A stretch of DNA of 64,000 nucleotides. It comes from Spirosoma oryzae (lineage in GTDB: Bacteria; Bacteroidota; Bacteroidia; Cytophagales; Spirosomataceae). The notes under the pieces were generated by a model. That model searched no databases. It was given only the letters and a program-made list of their open reading frames with translations, and was not told the DNA's origin. The stretch covers positions 248,001 through 312,000 of the forward strand of contig NZ_PVTE01000005.1 in NCBI RefSeq assembly GCF_003002825.1, read 5' to 3'. Position numbers and translations under genes: made by a program. Shown here one piece after another: positions 14,051 to 51,737 of this stretch (positions within the stretch are counted from its first letter, which is position 1; each line of letters starts with the position of its first letter).

Positions 14051-14113
14051 CCGGGCCGCCGGGCGGAGCGAAAGTAAGGCATCTGTAGCTGATCGCCGGG
14101 TTGAAACCCGGCG
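14051..14113. repeat. Intergenic palindromes with a GC-rich module
   Basis: Two bases after the stop codon lies CCGGGCCGCCGGGCGG (14051-14066). Its reverse complement is identical to 42068-42083, which sits inside an unrelated repeat. A second hairpin, CGCCGGGTT (14094-14102) with AACCCGGCG (14105-14113), follows and could act as a terminator. Confidence 0.6.
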
Positions 14114-20968: not shown

Positions 20969-21187
20969 ATGAAAATTAAACTTGGGAACGCAGTGCTGAA
21001 TCAGCGGGCTCTGGTTAAGCTGTTTCTCATCTTTTTCCTGACTGGCATACCGATCGGGGTAGCAGTCGCAACGCTGAAAGCGGGTAAGTCTGTAAAGTTG
21101 CTTTCCTTCCTACCGATTTACGTCATCGTTCTTCCGATATTGATACGCGGCATCCGAAAAGAAATCGCAAACGAACGTCCGTTGTAG
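20969..21187 (+). CDS. Small membrane protein, 72 aa
   Basis: A hypothetical protein starting at ATG 20969 (MKIKLGNAVLNQRALVK) with two predicted membrane segments (about residues 19-36 and 45-60) and a basic C-terminus (IRGIRKEIANERPL). The longer frame from 20891 would overlap the promoter. Its layout resembles the 71-aa protein at 21296: both begin M-x-I-x-x-G, have an Arg near residue 17 and two short hydrophobic segments with a Pro in between. They may be distant paralogues. The stop codon TAG lies inside the terminal GTAG of a dispersed repeat. Function is unknown; a link to the downstream ABC transporter is inferred from position and shared control sites. Confidence 0.55.
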   Translation: MKIKLGNAVLNQRALVKLFLIFFLTGIPIGVAVATLKAGKSVKLLSFLPIYVIVLPILIRGIRKEIANERPL

Positions 21188-21278
21188 AGACGCGACCCTT
21201 CGCGTCTCAGCGCGCGTCAGCAATTGTATCGTCAGTATAAACCATCCGGCGGTGAGACGCGAAGGATTGCGTCTCTAT
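21184..21278. repeat. GTAGAGACGCG-type palindromic element, copy 1
   Basis: GTAGAGACGCGACCCTTCG at the left end pairs with GAGACGCGAAGGATTGCGTC at the right. The middle carries the GCGTCAG and CCATCCGGCGG segments shared with copies at 27504-27617 and 44920-45055. Its first four bases contain the stop codon of the preceding gene. Confidence 0.85.
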
Positions 21279-26281: not shown

Positions 26282-26383
26282 GTAGCCTGGACGTCCACGT
26301 CCGGGTAGCCGTTAGGCTAACTACTTCAGGCGGATGCTTTTCCAGCCGCGATAGCGGCTACCAGACCTGGAGGTCTGGGCTAC
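26282..26383. repeat. GTAGCC-type palindromic element
   Basis: Starts GTAGCCTGGACGTCCACG, ends GACCTGGAGGTCTGGGCTAC, with inner arms CAGGCGGATGC and AGCCGCGATAGCGG. This copy lacks the GC-rich module seen in the copies at 42057 and 51564, and so serves as the reference for their insertions. It ends 6 bp short of the YchF stop codon. Confidence 0.8.
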
Positions 26384-27503: not shown

Positions 27504-27617
27504 GTAGAGACGCGACCCCTCGCGTCTCACCGCCGGATGGTATTACCGACCGGATGGTACCACCCACTGGATGGTATTGGCTGACGCACGCTGAGACGCA
27601 ATGGATTGCGTCTCTAC
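27504..27617. repeat. GTAGAGACGCG-type palindromic element, copy 2
   Basis: Starts GTAGAGACGCGACCCCTCG and ends GGATTGCGTCTCTAC. Inside are three or four GGATGGTAYY units (27535-27577) and TTGGCTGACGCA, a segment shared with the loop of the 33-bp palindrome at 32232. It begins 15 bp upstream of the ychF start, so it lies in that gene's leader. Confidence 0.85.
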
Positions 27618-27671
27618 AGGTTTTCCACAAAATTACGGTTTCGTCAACGGACCACCGCAACAGCAGACCGT

Positions 27672-41027: not shown

Positions 41028-42047
41028 TTAATGAAACAACGCCCGGAAACGATCGGGTGATCGGCCATCGAAATAACGGCGCTGATTGGCCAGCGACTTT
41101 TCGATCTGCTCAGGGGTAAACTGCATCGACTGGATGGCGAGTTTGAGCATCGTTTTCAGTGAAATAGATGGGTCCATTCGACTGAGTAGCTGCGGAAAAT
41201 GTACGGACAACGCTAATTTTTCGTCGCTCAGGAAACGGGCAATACGGTCCTGATTATCGGCTGTCAGGATACCGATCAGTGGGCGATTGACGGCGCAGAC
41301 TTCGTACGCAATCGTGCTGCAGGCGGTGATGGCCAGACTACATTGCCTCAACTCTACTACCATCTGACCGGCGTCCAGGTTTTGTAGAACGGTCAGATTG
41401 GGTAAAGTGGCTTGCAGGGTATCGATACTGGCGCGGTGCGCATACAGTGGCCCCAGTACGAGTCGGATCGCCTGCTTCGGATCGAGCTCATGGATGGCCT
41501 GCACGACGGTCAGCGAATAATTAGCCGGGTCGGCCCCGCCCAGACTGACGAAATACGGCCCATCGACCGGAGTTGGACCAAAGCCTTCCGGGTTCAAAAA
41601 CGGTGGCCGTAACAATGCATACAGCGGTCCCAGGCAGAAAGTAGTATCTGGGTCGGCGTCATAGTCGGCTGGTGTAACGTTGCCCGCGTGGTTGATGATG
41701 ACGTCGGCAGTCTGATGACCGTCCACCAAATCGTCAATAAAATACAGCCGTTTTACCCGCGCTTTGATCGTCTGCTGGTATGCACTGTCGAACGAGTACC
41801 CGTCTAGCACAACCTGATCCTGTTCGTTGAGCAAGGTCAGCAAGTCAGTGTCCGCAGTAGCTGCGGTTAATGCGATTACCCGAACACCCGTCTGCTCAAG
41901 CATCGACTGTACGGCCGGGTCGGGTTCTATGATCGCCATATACCGGTCAACCGACGGACCAAGTATGTTTGCCAGCGCCAGGCAGCGCATGACGTGGCCC
42001 AGCCCAATTTGACTATTAGCGTCGGCGCGGAAAATGATTCGGTTCAT
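41028..42047 (-). CDS. pseG: UDP-sugar hydrolase of the Pse pathway (PseG)
   Basis: A 339-aa GT-B-like hydrolase that removes UDP from UDP-2,4-diacetamido-2,4,6-trideoxy-beta-L-altrose. The N-terminus IIFRADANSQIGLGHVMRCLALANIL is the PseG signature with the catalytic-region His (GHVMR). The donor-side segment FVSLGGADPANYSLTVVQAI and the nucleotide loop (SLAITACSTIAYEVCAVNRPLIGI) follow. The stretch after about 300 is unassigned. It follows pseF after a 132-bp repeat-filled spacer. Confidence 0.93.
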   Translation of the reverse strand: MNRIIFRADANSQIGLGHVMRCLALANILGPSVDRYMAIIEPDPAVQSMLEQTGVRVIALTAATADTDLLTLLNEQDQVVLDGYSFDSAYQQTIKARVKRLYFIDDLVDGHQTADVIINHAGNVTPADYDADPDTTFCLGPLYALLRPPFLNPEGFGPTPVDGPYFVSLGGADPANYSLTVVQAIHELDPKQAIRLVLGPLYAHRASIDTLQATLPNLTVLQNLDAGQMVVELRQCSLAITACSTIAYEVCAVNRPLIGILTADNQDRIARFLSDEKLALSVHFPQLLSRMDPSISLKTMLKLAIQSMQFTPEQIEKSLANQRRYFDGRSPDRFRALFH

Positions 42048-42056
42048 ATGAATTGT

Positions 42057-42183
42057 GTAACCCAGACCCGCCCGGCGGCCCGGTCCAGGTCTGGTGGCCG
42101 TCAGGCCAATAAAGCTGCCGCTATAATCAGTTAGCCTACGGCTACCAGACGTGGACCCGTGCCGGCGGACCGGTCTGGGCTAC
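42057..42183. repeat. GTAGCC-type element with two GC-rich inserts
   Basis: It begins GTAACCCAGAC and ends GGTCTGGGCTAC. Compared with the copy at 26282, CCGCCCGGCGGCCCGG (42068-42083) is inserted in the left arm and CCGTGCCGGCGGACCGG (42157-42173) in the right arm, at nearly mirror-image positions. The TAG of the terminal GTAG (minus strand) is the stop codon of pseF. Confidence 0.85.
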
Positions 42184-42869
42184 TCTTTATGCATCAGTCG
42201 GTATTTAAATTCTGCGATCAGCCAGTCTTCTTCGGTGTCGATGTCGTGAGCATGTAACTCGGGGATGATCAGTCCGCCAGCGTTGTCGGTGATCAGTCTG
42301 CCGGTTTTCTGGAACACGTTTGGGCGGAATACGTAGAACTGTCCGGCATCGTGGTAAGCAGGTTCGAGATCCTGCGAACGGGTCAGCGCGTAGTCGGGGT
42401 TGAGCCAGGCCACGCGATTGTCGCGTACCGTAATCGCCCGCTGTACGGCGAAACTAAACCGTTGCACCGGGTAAACCGTATCAAACTGCCGATCAACCAG
42501 CAGGTCGACGGCGCGTTTGAGCAAATCGGCTGTGACAAATGGGGCGGTCGGGTACAGGCAGCATGCTAGCTCGAACGACTGACCCAATTGCGCATATTGC
42601 TCGAGTACTTCGGTCAGAACGTCGGCAGTCGTTGCATAGTCGTCGGCGGTCGTTGCGTGTCGGCGAAACGGTACCGACGCGCCGTACTGCCGGGCAATGG
42701 CTGCAATCTCGTCGTTGTCGGTCGAAACCATCACATCATCAAACAGGCCCGACTGCCTGGCCGCGTCGATGCCGTAAGCCAGAATGGGCTTGCCCAGAAA
42801 GGACCGGATGTTCTTGCGGGGGATGCGTTTGCTGCCGCCCCGCGCCGTGATGATCGCAATGGCTGTCAT
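42180..42869 (-). CDS. pseF: Pseudaminic acid cytidylyltransferase
   Basis: A 229-aa CMP-sugar synthetase that activates pseudaminic acid with CTP. The nucleotide loop is IAIITARGGSKRIPRKNIRSF and LGKPILAYGIDAA follows. VMVSTDNDEIAAIARQYGASVPFRR and the metal-binding Asp near the C-terminus (HDIDTEEDWLIAE) are as in the family. The length is standard. The stop TAG falls inside the end of a dispersed repeat. Product: CMP-Pse, the donor for a glycosyltransferase that should be encoded nearby. Confidence 0.94.
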   Translation of the reverse strand: MTAIAIITARGGSKRIPRKNIRSFLGKPILAYGIDAARQSGLFDDVMVSTDNDEIAAIARQYGASVPFRRHATTADDYATTADVLTEVLEQYAQLGQSFELACCLYPTAPFVTADLLKRAVDLLVDRQFDTVYPVQRFSFAVQRAITVRDNRVAWLNPDYALTRSQDLEPAYHDAGQFYVFRPNVFQKTGRLITDNAGGLIIPELHAHDIDTEEDWLIAEFKYRLMHKE

Positions 42870-42875
42870 AGGATG

Positions 42876-42932
42876 ACCTCACCCCCAACCCCCTCCCGCG
42901 ACGGCGGACCGCCTAAAACAGGAGAGGGGGCT
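42876..42932. repeat. CCCCCTCC-type hairpin with a GC-rich insert
   Basis: CCCCCAACCCCCTCC on the left and GGAGAGGGGGCTC on the right form the common polypyrimidine hairpin of Bacteroidota spacers. The loop is interrupted by CCGCGACGGCGGACCGC (42896-42912) before CTAAAACAG. This is the same GC-rich module seen in other repeat families. Confidence 0.7.
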
Positions 42933-42956
42933 CTTCCAGGGATAGCGTTTATGTAA

Positions 42957-43598
42957 TTAATTTTTACGTAAAAGGTACATGACGTCCTGATTGCCGCTCT
43001 CCGCCTGATTGATATAGGGATACAGCGTCTGTTTCTCCAGTGTCAGGGCGGGGAACTGCTGCTGGAACAGCGCGGCATAATCGGCTTTCCAGAGAAAACC
43101 ATCGTTACCCCGATACGGTACGCTGGTCAGCGACGGACTGTAGTATTCGAAGCCCCAGATGTACTGCCGGCTACAACGAACCATCTCACCCATGATGCGG
43201 GGCAGATCGTCGGGGGCGATATGAATCAGGACGCCATTCGTGCAGACCAGGTCGAAGAAACCATCGCGGAAGGGTAAGTCAAAACCTGACCCCTGAACGA
43301 TGTTGATGCCCTGCGTCTGCTGCTTCGCTTTCTCCACCGCGTAGGGCTGTAACTCGACGCCGTAGAGGTTGGTGAAGCCCATGTCCTGCAAACCACGCAG
43401 TTGCATACCCGTGTTGCAGCCGACCTCCAGAATGCGGGCGTCTCGGGGCAGATCAGCCAGAAAAGCCGCGTTCATGTCGGTCTTGGTAAGCCCCCAGTTC
43501 TGCCGGTAAAAGTCGTCCCATTCGGCTCGGTCGCGGGTATTACGGTCGGTATAGCTTTGGCCGAAGTCACCGGCCCAGAATTGTTCCTGTTGGGTCAT
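42957..43598 (-). CDS. Pseudaminic acid biosynthesis-associated methylase
   Basis: A 213-aa class I SAM-dependent methyltransferase that matches the family annotated as pseudaminic-acid-biosynthesis-associated methylase. Motif I is RILEVGCNTGMQLRGL, and the region QNWGLTKTDMNAAFL, GVLIHIAPDDLPRIM and SVPYRGNDGFLWKADY is distinctive for that family. Such genes occur inside Pse clusters. The methylated position is not known to me. It lies between pseC and pseF, both on the same strand. Confidence 0.9.
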   Translation of the reverse strand: MTQQEQFWAGDFGQSYTDRNTRDRAEWDDFYRQNWGLTKTDMNAAFLADLPRDARILEVGCNTGMQLRGLQDMGFTNLYGVELQPYAVEKAKQQTQGINIVQGSGFDLPFRDGFFDLVCTNGVLIHIAPDDLPRIMGEMVRCSRQYIWGFEYYSPSLTSVPYRGNDGFLWKADYAALFQQQFPALTLEKQTLYPYINQAESGNQDVMYLLRKN

Positions 43599-43601
43599 AA
43601 A

Positions 43602-43721
43602 TGGTTTTTAGTTTACGGTCTCCGGTTTACAGTTCTCTGTCAGACAATTTCCATAGCGGTAACCTACCGTGCGACGGACCGAGCCACAGCGGCCGCCGTA
43701 AACTGAAAACTGTAAACCGAA
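43602..43721. repeat. TTTACGG/TTTACAG-type palindromic element
   Basis: The left end is GTTTACGGTCTCCGGTTTAC and the right end GTAAACTGAAAACTGTAAACC. The centre contains CCGTGCGACGGACCG (43666-43680), close to the GC-rich module, and AGCGGCCGCCG. It fills the pseC-methylase spacer. Confidence 0.85.
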
Positions 43722-43726
43722 ACCCC

Positions 43727-44905
43727 TTATTTCAATCCCAATTTTACCGACTCGATCACGTAGGCCTGCTCGTCGGGGGTGAGGGTGGGGAACATGGGGA
43801 GACTCAGGCAGCGGGCGTAGTAACGCTCGGCGTGCGGGAAGTCGCCGGGTTGCCAGCCAAACTGCCGGTAGTACGGCATCAGATGCACCGGTATGTAGTG
43901 TACCTGTACCATGATGTTGCGGCTCCGCAGAAAGTCGTATAACCCCTTCCGGTCGTCGGTCTGCACAACATAGAGGTGATAGGCATGGCCGACGTTGGCC
44001 GGTGGGACGATGAGGTCGAGGCCGGGCGTGTTGGCGAAGGCTTCGTCGTACCGGCGAGCGATAGCGGCCCGCTCGGCAAACATCGTATCGGCACGGCCGA
44101 GCTGACTCAGGCCCAGAGCTGCCTGGAAATCGGTCAGGCGGTAGTTGTAGCCCAGTTCCTGCATCTCCATGTACCAGCCCCCGCGCTCCGGTTCGCCCGG
44201 ATAGGGCTCCGTAAAGTCACCGGCTTTGTTGGTGATGCCGTGGGTGCGTAGGCGCAACAGGTGATCGTACAAGGTTTTGCTAGCCGTCGTAATCATGCCC
44301 CCCTCGCCAGCCGCAATGTGCTTGACGGGGTGGAAGCTGAAAATCGCTAGATCGGCCAGTGAGCCGTCGCCACAGCGGTGCGTCTGTCCGGTTGCATCCG
44401 TGAAAAAGCCGCCCGGTGCATGACAACTGTCTTCGATCAGCCACAGCCCATGCGCATCGGCCAGTGCGCGGAACTCGTCCATCGGTACCGGATAACCCGC
44501 GAAGTCAACCGGGATGATTCCCGAGAAATACCCCGCCGGATGCTGCTCGATCAACGCCCGTACGGCGTCGATGGAGAGCAGCGCGGTCGTCGGGTCGATA
44601 TCGGCAAAGTACACCTCGCCCCCGCAGTACCGCACGCAGTTGGCCGAGGCCGAAAAGGTAATGGGCGTGGTAATGACGCGTGTCCCCGGACCAACGCCGA
44701 GTGCCATGCAGCACAGGTGCAGGGCGGCTGTCCCATTGGCAACGGCAACGGCGTAAGGTGCGTTGACATACTGCGCGAAGGCTTCTTCGAACTGCGCAAT
44801 GGTCGGACCCTGCGTCAGGAAAGGGCCGCGCAGCACAGTATTGACGGCGGCAATATCTTCGTCGGTAATATGCTGCCGACCGTACGGAATCGGTTTTTCA
44901 GGCAT
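43727..44905 (-). CDS. pseC: PLP-dependent aminotransferase of the Pse pathway
   Basis: A 392-aa DegT/DnrJ/EryC1-type enzyme that aminates UDP-4-keto-6-deoxy-L-N-acetylaltrosamine at C4. It starts PIPYGRQHITDEDIAAVNTVLRGPFLTQGP. PLP binds Lys in SFHPVKHIAAGEGG (about residue 195), with ANGTAALHL and IEDSCHAPGG forming the cofactor site. Length fits the family. It follows pseB after a repeat-filled spacer of 146 bp. Confidence 0.94.
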   Translation of the reverse strand: MPEKPIPYGRQHITDEDIAAVNTVLRGPFLTQGPTIAQFEEAFAQYVNAPYAVAVANGTAALHLCCMALGVGPGTRVITTPITFSASANCVRYCGGEVYFADIDPTTALLSIDAVRALIEQHPAGYFSGIIPVDFAGYPVPMDEFRALADAHGLWLIEDSCHAPGGFFTDATGQTHRCGDGSLADLAIFSFHPVKHIAAGEGGMITTASKTLYDHLLRLRTHGITNKAGDFTEPYPGEPERGGWYMEMQELGYNYRLTDFQAALGLSQLGRADTMFAERAAIARRYDEAFANTPGLDLIVPPANVGHAYHLYVVQTDDRKGLYDFLRSRNIMVQVHYIPVHLMPYYRQFGWQPGDFPHAERYYARCLSLPMFPTLTPDEQAYVIESVKLGLK

Positions 44906-44919
44906 TGGTTCAGTTTTTT

Positions 44920-45055
44920 GTAGAGACGCGACCCTTCGCGTCTCGATACCCGGATGGTATCACCGCCGGATGGTTTGGCTGATACCAAATGTCTCAGTAA
45001 AACCATCCGGCTACTGAGACGCGAAGGATCGCCGGTCCGCCGGTGCGGTCTCTAC
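44920..45055. repeat. GTAGAGACGCG-type element, copy 3, with a GC-rich insert
   Basis: Starts GTAGAGACGCGACCCTTCG and ends with GGTCTCTAC. Where copies 1 and 2 read GGAT then TGCG, this copy has CGCCGGTCCGCCGG inserted between them (45030-45043). The terminal GTAG on the minus strand supplies the stop codon of pseB. Confidence 0.88.
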
Positions 45056-46068
45056 ACAGAAAAATCAGCGTCAACGTGCTGGCGGACCTGATCGCGGAGT
45101 TGATCGACGGTTAGCCAGTCGGTGTTAGTGCCGGAATTGTATTTGAAGCCCATCTCGACCTGCCGACCGTTGAATGCCTCCATGTACTCGTCGGTGCTCC
45201 AGATCGGCGTCGACGGGGTGATGACGTAGTATTTGTCGGTCTCGATCGTGTTCAGCGCGTCGGTTTCGGTAATCATCTCCTCATGTAGCTTCTCGCCCGG
45301 CCGGATACCCACCAACTTCTGCTCACAGTCGGGGCCGATGGCCGTGGCTACGTCGGTGATGCGGTACGACGGAATTTTGGGAACGTAGATTTCACCACCC
45401 CAGGCATGCTCCAGGGCGTACAGCACCATTTCGACACCCTCTTCGAGCGAGATGTTGAACCGCGTCATGTCAGGATGCGTGATGGGCAGTACACCGTCTT
45501 TGCGCTTTTCCAGGAAGAACGGCACCACCGATCCCCGCGACCCGATGACATTACCATACCGTACGACCGAGAAACGCAGGTCGCGGCTGCCTTTCGCATT
45601 GTTGGCGGCCACAAACAGCTTGTCGGAACAAAGTTTGGTAGCGCCATAGAGGTTGATGGGTGCAGCCGCTTTGTCGGTCGAGAGCGCCACGACCCGTTGG
45701 ACACCCATGTCCATGGCCGCGTTGATGACGTTCTCCGCCCCGAACACGTTGGTTTTGATGCACTCGATCGGGTTGTATTCAGCCGCCGGAACCTGCTTGA
45801 GCGCAGCCGCGTGTATGATGACATCGATGCCTTCGCAGGCCCGCCGGAGTCGGTCGGCATCGCGCACGTCGCCGATGAAAAAGCGAATCGACTTGTATTT
45901 TGATTGCGGATAATACTGACTCATCTCGAACTGCTTCAGTTCGTCGCGCGAGTAGATCACCAGCCGTTTCAGATTCGGATAGCGCTGGTAGACCATCTCA
46001 ACGAACTTCTTACCGAACGAGCCGGTACCGCCCGTAATCAGAATGGATTTATTGGTTAAATCGAGCAT
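45052..46068 (-). CDS. pseB: UDP-N-acetylglucosamine 4,6-dehydratase (inverting)
   Basis: A 338-aa short-chain dehydrogenase that starts the pathway: it makes UDP-4-keto-6-deoxy-L-N-acetylaltrosamine from UDP-GlcNAc. The NADP loop is ILITGGTGSFGKKFVEMV; the catalytic stretch VALSTDKAAAPINLYGATK has the Asp-Lys pair and Tyr of the inverting FlaA1/PseB type. ATG 46068 is the start; a TTG lies 6 nt before. Its stop TAG is part of a dispersed repeat. It begins 15 bp after the GNGPSL protein gene, so both share a transcript. Confidence 0.95.
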   Translation of the reverse strand: MLDLTNKSILITGGTGSFGKKFVEMVYQRYPNLKRLVIYSRDELKQFEMSQYYPQSKYKSIRFFIGDVRDADRLRRACEGIDVIIHAAALKQVPAAEYNPIECIKTNVFGAENVINAAMDMGVQRVVALSTDKAAAPINLYGATKLCSDKLFVAANNAKGSRDLRFSVVRYGNVIGSRGSVVPFFLEKRKDGVLPITHPDMTRFNISLEEGVEMVLYALEHAWGGEIYVPKIPSYRITDVATAIGPDCEQKLVGIRPGEKLHEEMITETDALNTIETDKYYVITPSTPIWSTDEYMEAFNGRQVEMGFKYNSGTNTDWLTVDQLRDQVRQHVDADFSV

Positions 46069-51525: not shown

Positions 51526-51737
51526 GGGTATACAGTATTCCGTTTTCGGTATACGGTGGAAGTGTAGCCTAGACCCGCGCCGTTGGACCGGTCCACGTCC
51601 GGGTGGGTGCGATAGTAACCAAAATAGTTACCACCTGCGAGCGTTGCCCTGACGGGCACCCGGACGTGGACGTCCAGGCTACATGATACGCGTCAGCTAC
51701 CGTATACTGAAAACTGAATACCGCATACCGTTTTTAG
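51526..51737. repeat. Nested repeat between susC and susD
   Basis: The outer arms GGTATACAGTATTCCG (51526) and ACCGTATACTGAAAACTGAA (51699) belong to the TTTACGG/TTTACAG type. The GTAGCC-type element (51564-51682) is nested inside, with CCGCGCCGTTGGACCGG (51575-51591) inserted in its left arm. The outer arm reaches the susC stop codon. It is transcribed between the two genes and would form a large hairpin. Confidence 0.85.

Follow-up and report, generated by a model that had tools for sequence, protein, structure and literature searches.

The window analysed here, a stretch of 64,000 nucleotides of the Spirosoma oryzae genome (contig NZ_PVTE01000005.1, positions 248,001 to 312,000), contains several copies of a short GC-rich module, most of them embedded in palindromic repeats (Table 1). 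The module is non-coding, measures 15–16 bp, is found in both orientations and follows the consensus CCGC-R-N6-CGGCGGACCG. Many copies agree at 14 of the 16 positions, in part as a result of the pattern chosen for the search. Together with the base that follows it in the target, N17, it can fold as a small, stable hairpin, N6-CGG-(CGGA)-CCG-N17. Comparison with module-free relatives shows that the module is an insertion, both precise and recurrent, and that the target usually supplies part of the hairpin. The module-bearing spacers between 42180 and 46074 of the window sit among cytidylyltransferase, methyltransferase, DegT/DnrJ aminotransferase and Polysacc_synt_2 genes, a surface-sugar cluster. 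Searching window positions 41900–45300 against Rfam returned four matches (E 0.052–0.92), all to microRNA models and far under the cut-offs.

A preliminary description of this DNA had proposed the module from seven strings, and the observation as a whole is confirmed: all seven are present in the window, six of them at the positions given and one, CCGTGCGACGGACCG, one base off (43667–43681). The copies at 42157, 42896, 45033 (minus strand) and 51575, the last with two mismatches, are well supported as members. Since the same repeat family elsewhere (loci L060, L069 and L077) carries the 42068 variant (CGGCGGCCCGG, one N) at the same place, that copy was accepted as a variant. The 43667 string is without the CGGCGG core and was not retained, and the string at 14051 matches the 42068 variant but nothing else, with no recognisable repeat around it. 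Two host repeats act as internal controls. The repeat at 44920–45055 has an empty left arm (GTAGAGACGCGACCC) and a module in its right arm; in that at 51564–51682 the module lies in the left arm and GTGGACGTCCAGGCTAC in the other. The polypyrimidine repeat type also holds the same module at loci L074 and L081 and in G020, the nearest relative of the window's genome (G000). At the orthologue of the 27655 site G020 has a one-mismatch copy, and G024, whose spacer is similar by eye, an exact one (L168). Elsewhere on the window's contig, the sequences at G000:C5:228490 and 338438 are identical as far as printed (CCCTAAATCCCCTGAAGGGGA...) and hold a two-mismatch module-like CGGCAGCGGCCGACCG inside a hairpin.

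Table 1. Module copies, host repeats and module-free reference arms in the window (positions are those of the window; ^ marks the point of insertion)
Feature	Position	Strand	Remarks
Module copy CCGTGCCGGCGGACCG, one mismatch	42157..42172	+	Followed by N17 = G, which pairs with N6 = C
Variant module CCGCCCGGCGGCCCGG, single N, loop A to C	42068..42083	+	Left arm of the 42057..42183 repeat
Host palindromic repeat, family A (GTAGCC type)	42057..42183		No counterpart in G020, the nearest relative, at the orthologous spacer
Exact module CCGCGACGGCGGACCG	42896..42911	+	Within a polypyrimidine hairpin, CCCCCTC-module-CCTAAAACAGGAGAGGGGG
Host polypyrimidine hairpin repeat	42877..42932		
Exact module CCGCACCGGCGGACCG	45033..45048	-	Right arm of a family B REPIN-like repeat; empty relative GTAGAGAC^GCGACC, net 15 bp
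Host repeat, family B, GTAG and hairpin at each end, REPIN-like	44920..45055		
Module-free left arm (GTAGAGACGCGACCCTTCGCGTCT) of the 44920..45055 repeat	44920..44943	+	
Diverged module CCGCGCCGTTGGACCG, two mismatches	51575..51590	+	Left arm of a family A repeat
Host repeat, family A	51564..51682		
Module-free right arm (CCCGGACGTGGACGTCCAGGCTACAT) of the 51564..51682 repeat	51659..51684	+	
Diverged module CCGCAACAGCAGACCG, two mismatches	27655..27670	+	Spacer
Module-free family A arm (GCCTGGACGTCCACGTCC)	26289..26297	+	Empty-site reference
Module-free family B arm (GTAGAGACGCGACCC)	21184..21193	+	Empty-site reference; others at 27504 (+) and 27608 (-)
Claimed copy CCGTGCGACGGACCG	43667..43681	+	Without conserved core; rejected as member
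Variant resembling the 42068 copy	14051..14066	-	Outside any recognised repeat; membership uncertain

Although a local inverted-repeat score was enriched at the module (at least 10 in 48/129 copies versus 19/387 random positions), it misses many repeats and was rejected as a definition of the target; the empty-site comparison was therefore adopted. To count as an empty site, a relative had to lack the module and match at 23 or more of 28 flank positions, net lengths of 14–17 bp being allowed. Such a relative was found in the sampled sequence of the same genome for 60 of 152 tested copies (five genomes), and module-free relatives were present at 59/150 module positions (39%) versus 49/836 intervals shifted by 30–60 bp (6%). 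The net length in 42 non-redundant cases was 15 bp (24), 16 bp (17) or 14 bp (1), and the flanks matched without target duplication, leaving the target otherwise intact. Typical empty sites are GTGGAC^GTCCAGGC (16 bp inserted, GTAGCC family) and GTAGAGAC^GCGACC (15 bp); others are GAA^CAAGGAA (16 bp, N6 = G) and GAAC^AAGGAA (15 bp, N6 = T). The 15-bp form occurs mostly where the target itself provides the module's first C. Insertions are mostly after A or a shared C, the base left of the module being A in 139 of 209 distinct copies. The boundaries proposed initially need a shift: 14 bp had been counted between GGAT and TGCG at 45030, whereas the 45033 copy has module-free relatives with the sequence GGGTCGC^GTCTCTAC (the complement of its own repeat's left arm) or GGATTGC^GTCTCTA (window 21264–21278), and its insert is therefore 15 bp at C^G.

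The variable base N6 is tied to the base that follows the module. N6 and N17 form a Watson-Crick pair in 136/209 distinct copies, against a mean of 58.3 and a maximum of 86 in 20,000 shuffles, and a G:T or T:G pair in 32 further copies. Over the first 134 copies the mutual information between N6 and N17 was 0.90 bits and that of the next pair 0.23. The excess was seen in Spirosoma (71/101 vs 33.2, a group that includes up to four copies from Flavobacterium and metagenome-assembled genome (MAG) records), in a second genus (26/50 vs 14.9) and in genome G052 (21/26 vs 9.7). N5, which is A or G in 185/209 distinct copies, showed no excess of pairing with N18 (42/134 vs 54.8). When empty sites were aligned, their base equalled N17 in 31/42 cases and was complementary to N6 in 27/42. 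As N17 usually comes from the target and tends to be complementary to N6, module and target can form the hairpin together. A strand preference, as for an RNA hairpin on the complementary strand, was hinted at by A:C mismatches and was abandoned when further copies had many G:T pairs on the other strand.

The preliminary description had placed the module in palindromic repeats; such hosts exist, and are unrelated to each other, but the statement was too narrow, since copies also lie in other spacers and in genes that represent eight or more families of transposases or recombinases. Many of the hosts are mobile in their own right. Among 21 aligned rows of IS3 orfB, six carry a 15-bp in-frame module at GAGAC^GATG (one is the query and one has a mismatch), 11 are without it, and in four a module-like insert lies at another point of the gene, three of these inserts having a 15-nt form with one N. 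Over 577 columns the closest pair shown with and without the module, L173 and L335 (two species), shares 88% identity, and the alignment has a 15-bp gap at the GAGAC^GATG site. A 16-bp frameshifting insert lies at one site of a PDDEXK_2 nuclease ('putative transposase') gene in 3 of 28 aligned sequences, two from the window's genome and one from G034, and is lacking from the other 25; a fourth such gene, at L280, has an insert at another position. Frames holding or adjoining copies also match Phage_integrase, DDE_Tnp_ISL3, Transposase_20 (IS110), HTH_Tnp_IS1, DUF4096 (IS4/5), Resolvase, rve_2/rve_3 and HTH_21, with DDE_Tnp_1 just under the cut-off. A transposase or recombinase match was obtained for 14 of 20 pieces picked from 119 non-palindromic copies (L385 and L280 fell below the cut-off), a rate that is no unbiased estimate because the pieces were picked by hand; ten further module-adjoining pieces matched no transposase family in Pfam. 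We also observed apparent tyrosine-recombinase genes with two modules each at L391 and L392 (G106), three copies within and next to the genes of what appears to be an IS3-type element at L351 (G001), and an apparent response-regulator frame, judged by eye, that is open across two repeats with one module each at L229 (G052).

To count the module across genomes, an earlier 11-mer, CGGCGGACCGG, and a refined pattern, CCGCNNCGGCGGACCG, were each set against the reversed pattern, with no codon-aware model. Because 14 bases are fixed in the refined pattern, the counts are too low for diverged copies, and some of the matches in coding sequence may be due to chance. The pattern CCGNNNCGGCGGACCGG at three mismatches was too loose (2190 matches vs 1292 in the control) and was discarded. 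The 11-mer gave 28 matches versus 3 reversed in the window's genome (75 contigs, 6.57 Mb), and the refined pattern 39 versus 0, so the refuting outcome named in the preliminary description, counts no higher than composition would give, does not hold. The sample held one genome per species, and loci were taken mostly by coordinate order within a few genomes. All 36 Spirosoma genomes sampled carry the module (1 to 64 copies, controls 0 to 2), and its count exceeds the reversed control in 35 of them, G007 having one of each. Of 23 non-Spirosoma genomes searched alongside, two have it (1 and 61 copies). Across the order the distribution is patchy, with a match in 82 of 390 genomes and none in 308; the top counts outside Spirosoma are 203, 102, 70, 67 and 29 in other genera of the same family and 61, 20 and 12 in three genomes of other families. 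When named genomes were scanned for the module within a single type of repeat, 14 stretches were obtained, including Spirosoma fluviale, S. endophyticum, S. utsteinense and S. luteum, as well as a Cytophagales MAG (two records), a Spirosomataceae MAG (one) and Flavobacterium (one). The S. fluviale stretch matches G027, a genome from the window's genus, at 100% identity over 2,630 bp, which assigns that genus to Spirosoma. A variant with T in the loop, always followed by ATG, occurs at four places in a 400-kb stretch of G020:C1 (L188–L207), three times as CCGCTTCGGCGGTCCG and once as CCGCATCGGCGGTCCG, and possibly represents a subfamily with its own repeat.

Presence and absence can also be followed in orthologous spacers. 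For a spacer between two conserved genes that holds a REPIN, a hairpin-forming doublet of repetitive extragenic palindromic (REP) sequences, seven of the 16 loci retrieved with G027 as query were inspected. The module lies in both REPIN arms in G027 and in the left arm only in G035 and G026. G011 has the same repeat type and G016 a similar repeat (GTAGAGCCGC), both module-free, and G019 and G008 have other sequences there. The module in G027, G035 and G026 would fit one insertion in a common ancestor, as these three genomes are closer to each other than to the other genomes among the matches listed. The comparison comes from another locus, where identity is 90.6% between G035 and G026 and 88–89% between G027 and either of them; among the 30 loci compared there, G035 and G026 are mutually closest, followed by G027, and one pair of other species is closer. 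In G035 (L429:2114–2146) 16 additional bases (CGCAGCTGCGGACGAT) split the orthologous module. They look like a diverged module, so that one micro-insertion is possibly nested in another, and they have no other copy in the sequences searched. Between the window's contig and G020:C1 (L188–L222) gene order is kept over ~339 kb at ~80% identity. The spacers compared hold altogether different palindromic repeats and for this reason provide no module-only difference; repeats turn over fast between these two genomes.

In our view the module probably represents a mobile insertion of very small size that codes for nothing, enters in trans as a single strand with N6:N17 pairing and gains further copies by hitch-hiking within repeats. 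A trans-acting machine would insert a copy as single-stranded DNA or RNA, and the pairing would either recognise the target or template one base. Once inside a mobile repeat, the module would multiply as the repeat spreads or its arms become alike, so that its frequency in repeats would reflect both insertion and hitch-hiking. Part of the copy number is assigned to hitch-hiking because many copies within repeat families share position and N5N6. An 'inserted module' or 'mobile micro-element', as first suggested, is supported by the precise empty sites, by presence and absence in homologous genes and an orthologous spacer, and by the patchy, high copy number; the earlier interpretation as a whole is partly supported. 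Among the genes beside the module at 160 loci no protein family stands out, the largest clusters covering 7 loci and looking ordinary by eye.

Several observations weigh against this reading. Neither an enzyme nor a full-length source element was found, so that mobility in trans is an inference. The N6:N17 signal is weaker outside Spirosoma and G052 (in the mixed remaining genomes 18/32 vs 13.5, a value reached by 889 of 20,000 shuffles), and the aligned empty-site base differs from N17 in 11/42 cases. No module-free relative was present in the sampled sequence for 92 of 152 tested copies, and presence and absence were compared between different species only. Much of the family A and B copy number can be hitch-hiking, and copies in ordinary genes (e.g. 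DUF72) may be chance coding matches.

Hitch-hiking could in principle be the whole explanation, REP- or REPIN-type repeats having gained the module once or a few times and spread it solely through copying by REP-associated tyrosine transposases (RAYT/Y1_Tnp) or through recombination. Copies within a family often occupy the same place with the same N5N6 (mostly AC in family B and GC in family A), and both arms of one palindrome often share the same variant, as this would predict. However, the module also occurs in unrelated repeats and in IS1, IS3, IS4/5, IS110, ISL3, resolvase, tyrosine recombinase and PDDEXK_2 genes, and an orthologous spacer keeps the repeat and lacks the module alone. Nor do Y1_Tnp counts follow module counts. 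Y1_Tnp was rejected as the driver: since G031 has 56 modules and no Y1_Tnp, REP transposases do not explain the module. G000, with 39, has one weak match, and the 18 module-free genomes compared have 0–9 matches, all counted for the whole family, of which RAYT is a subset. We therefore regard hitch-hiking as an unlikely sole cause.

A longer transposon with the motif at its ends might instead have been excised or recombined away, leaving the module as a scar in the manner of a solo long terminal repeat. Its precise net length, the lack of a gene inside it and its copies in or near transposase genes agree with such an origin. No longer module-bounded element was seen in the contexts read, although no systematic search was made, and the largest protein clusters beside the module cover only 7 of 160 loci and are ordinary families by eye. 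Around close pairs of modules, the module interrupts genes for a transposase or recombinase, and N6 differs in several pairs. We consider a scar somewhat less plausible still than hitch-hiking.

The 14 constant positions, in part a product of the pattern, the stable small hairpin and the orthologous retention at window position 27655 might also suggest a site that functions as DNA or RNA (bound by a protein, a recombination hot spot or an RNA hairpin) and that selection on local sequence, not insertion, produced repeatedly. Precise inserts of 15 or 16 bp in sequence that otherwise aligns, some of them shifting the frame of transposase-type genes, are unlike convergence by point mutation, and this origin is largely refuted and very improbable. 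The protein-binding or recombination site offered in the preliminary description in place of mobility is likewise unsupported as an origin, though a mobile module could still be bound. Hardly credible is a host-run defence in which a cellular system writes a 16-bp frameshifting hairpin into repeats and transposases: the families of transposases or recombinases with copies do number eight or more, and 16 bp shifts the frame, but inserts in useful genes may simply have been lost, the IS3 orfB copies (15 bp) are in frame, the tested genes were hand-chosen and yield no rate, and there is no candidate system.

More tentatively, and with appreciable doubt, the preferred reading of a mobile insertion can be extended. 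The module may be the smallest mobile element known (15–16 bp), served by an undescribed machine that reads at least one target base by pairing with it or copying it into the hairpin, works on repeats as well as transposase genes in genera that are not related to each other, and maybe disarms mobile DNA. If the module moves by itself, it would be among the smallest mobile DNA elements known. How sequences too short for a gene or a transposon end multiply is an old open question, raised by small dispersed repeats (SDRs) and mitochondrial GC clusters, and it becomes testable with a discrete 16-bp unit that reaches about 200 copies per genome in free-living bacteria, leaves its empty sites recognisable, follows a target rule and bears a base-pair signature that can be counted. 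In this group, REP-like hairpins with GC-rich 'extensions' and transposase genes with odd small frameshifts may owe these features to insertion and not to decay.

In the literature covered, which took in few subscription papers, no element with the module's sequence, size and host group is described. The initial statement that no element of this kind has been described is nearly right, since elements of similar behaviour are on record, among them the yeast mitochondrial GC clusters and the SDRs of Nostoc. GC42 clusters are mobile short GC-rich hairpins of 42 nt with a small fixed target, AG nucleotides lying on both sides, for which empty sites were observed, the mechanism is unsettled and an RNA route is discussed (PMC4478555). 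The module resembles them as a short GC-rich hairpin with empty sites and differs in being 15–16 bp long and chromosomal, with no target duplication seen. REPs are described as inserted within other palindromes, and REPs and REPINs work with RAYT transposases (PMC3733652, PMC3116915). It is the host repeats A and B, and not the module, that start with GTAG and resemble GTAG-tagged REP doublets; the module is shorter, lies inside such repeats, has no GTAG (or CGTC) tag by a 20–40 nt palindrome and varies in number independently of Y1_Tnp. When inserted in open reading frames, palindromic elements of Rickettsia and REPs are often in frame and typically encode 20–30 amino acids or more (PMC3733652). 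Like them, the module is a short palindrome inserted in genes, but it adds only five codons or shifts the frame.

Unlike transposons that duplicate their target, the module has flanks that match the empty site without direct duplication. IS200/IS605-type transposition uses guide bases inside the element, which pair where the target is cleaved. Here one pair only is apparent, N6:N17, the neighbouring N5:N18 falling short of expectation (42/134 vs 54.8), and a Y1 transposase that could act in cis or in trans is lacking in G031, which has 56 modules and no Y1_Tnp match. Closest in behaviour are the SDRs of Nostoc and relatives, described by Elhai and colleagues in 2008 (cited in PMC3116915): very small dispersed repeats inside other repeats, considered mobile, reportedly of 21–27 nt and of several unrelated sequences, occurring in cyanobacteria and forming a hairpin with compensatory changes. 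No enzyme is known for them. They share with the module the embedding in other repeats and a hairpin with compensatory change, in our case at one varying pair (136/209 vs 58.3), the rest of the stem being fixed by the pattern. The module differs from them in its net length of 14–16 bp in 42 of 42 empty-site cases (14–17 bp allowed), in being one sequence in Cytophagales, in its presence in transposase genes as well and in a base complementary to the target. By this analogy, we read the module as a mobile micro-insertion that would work like the cyanobacterial SDRs, yet is not one of them.

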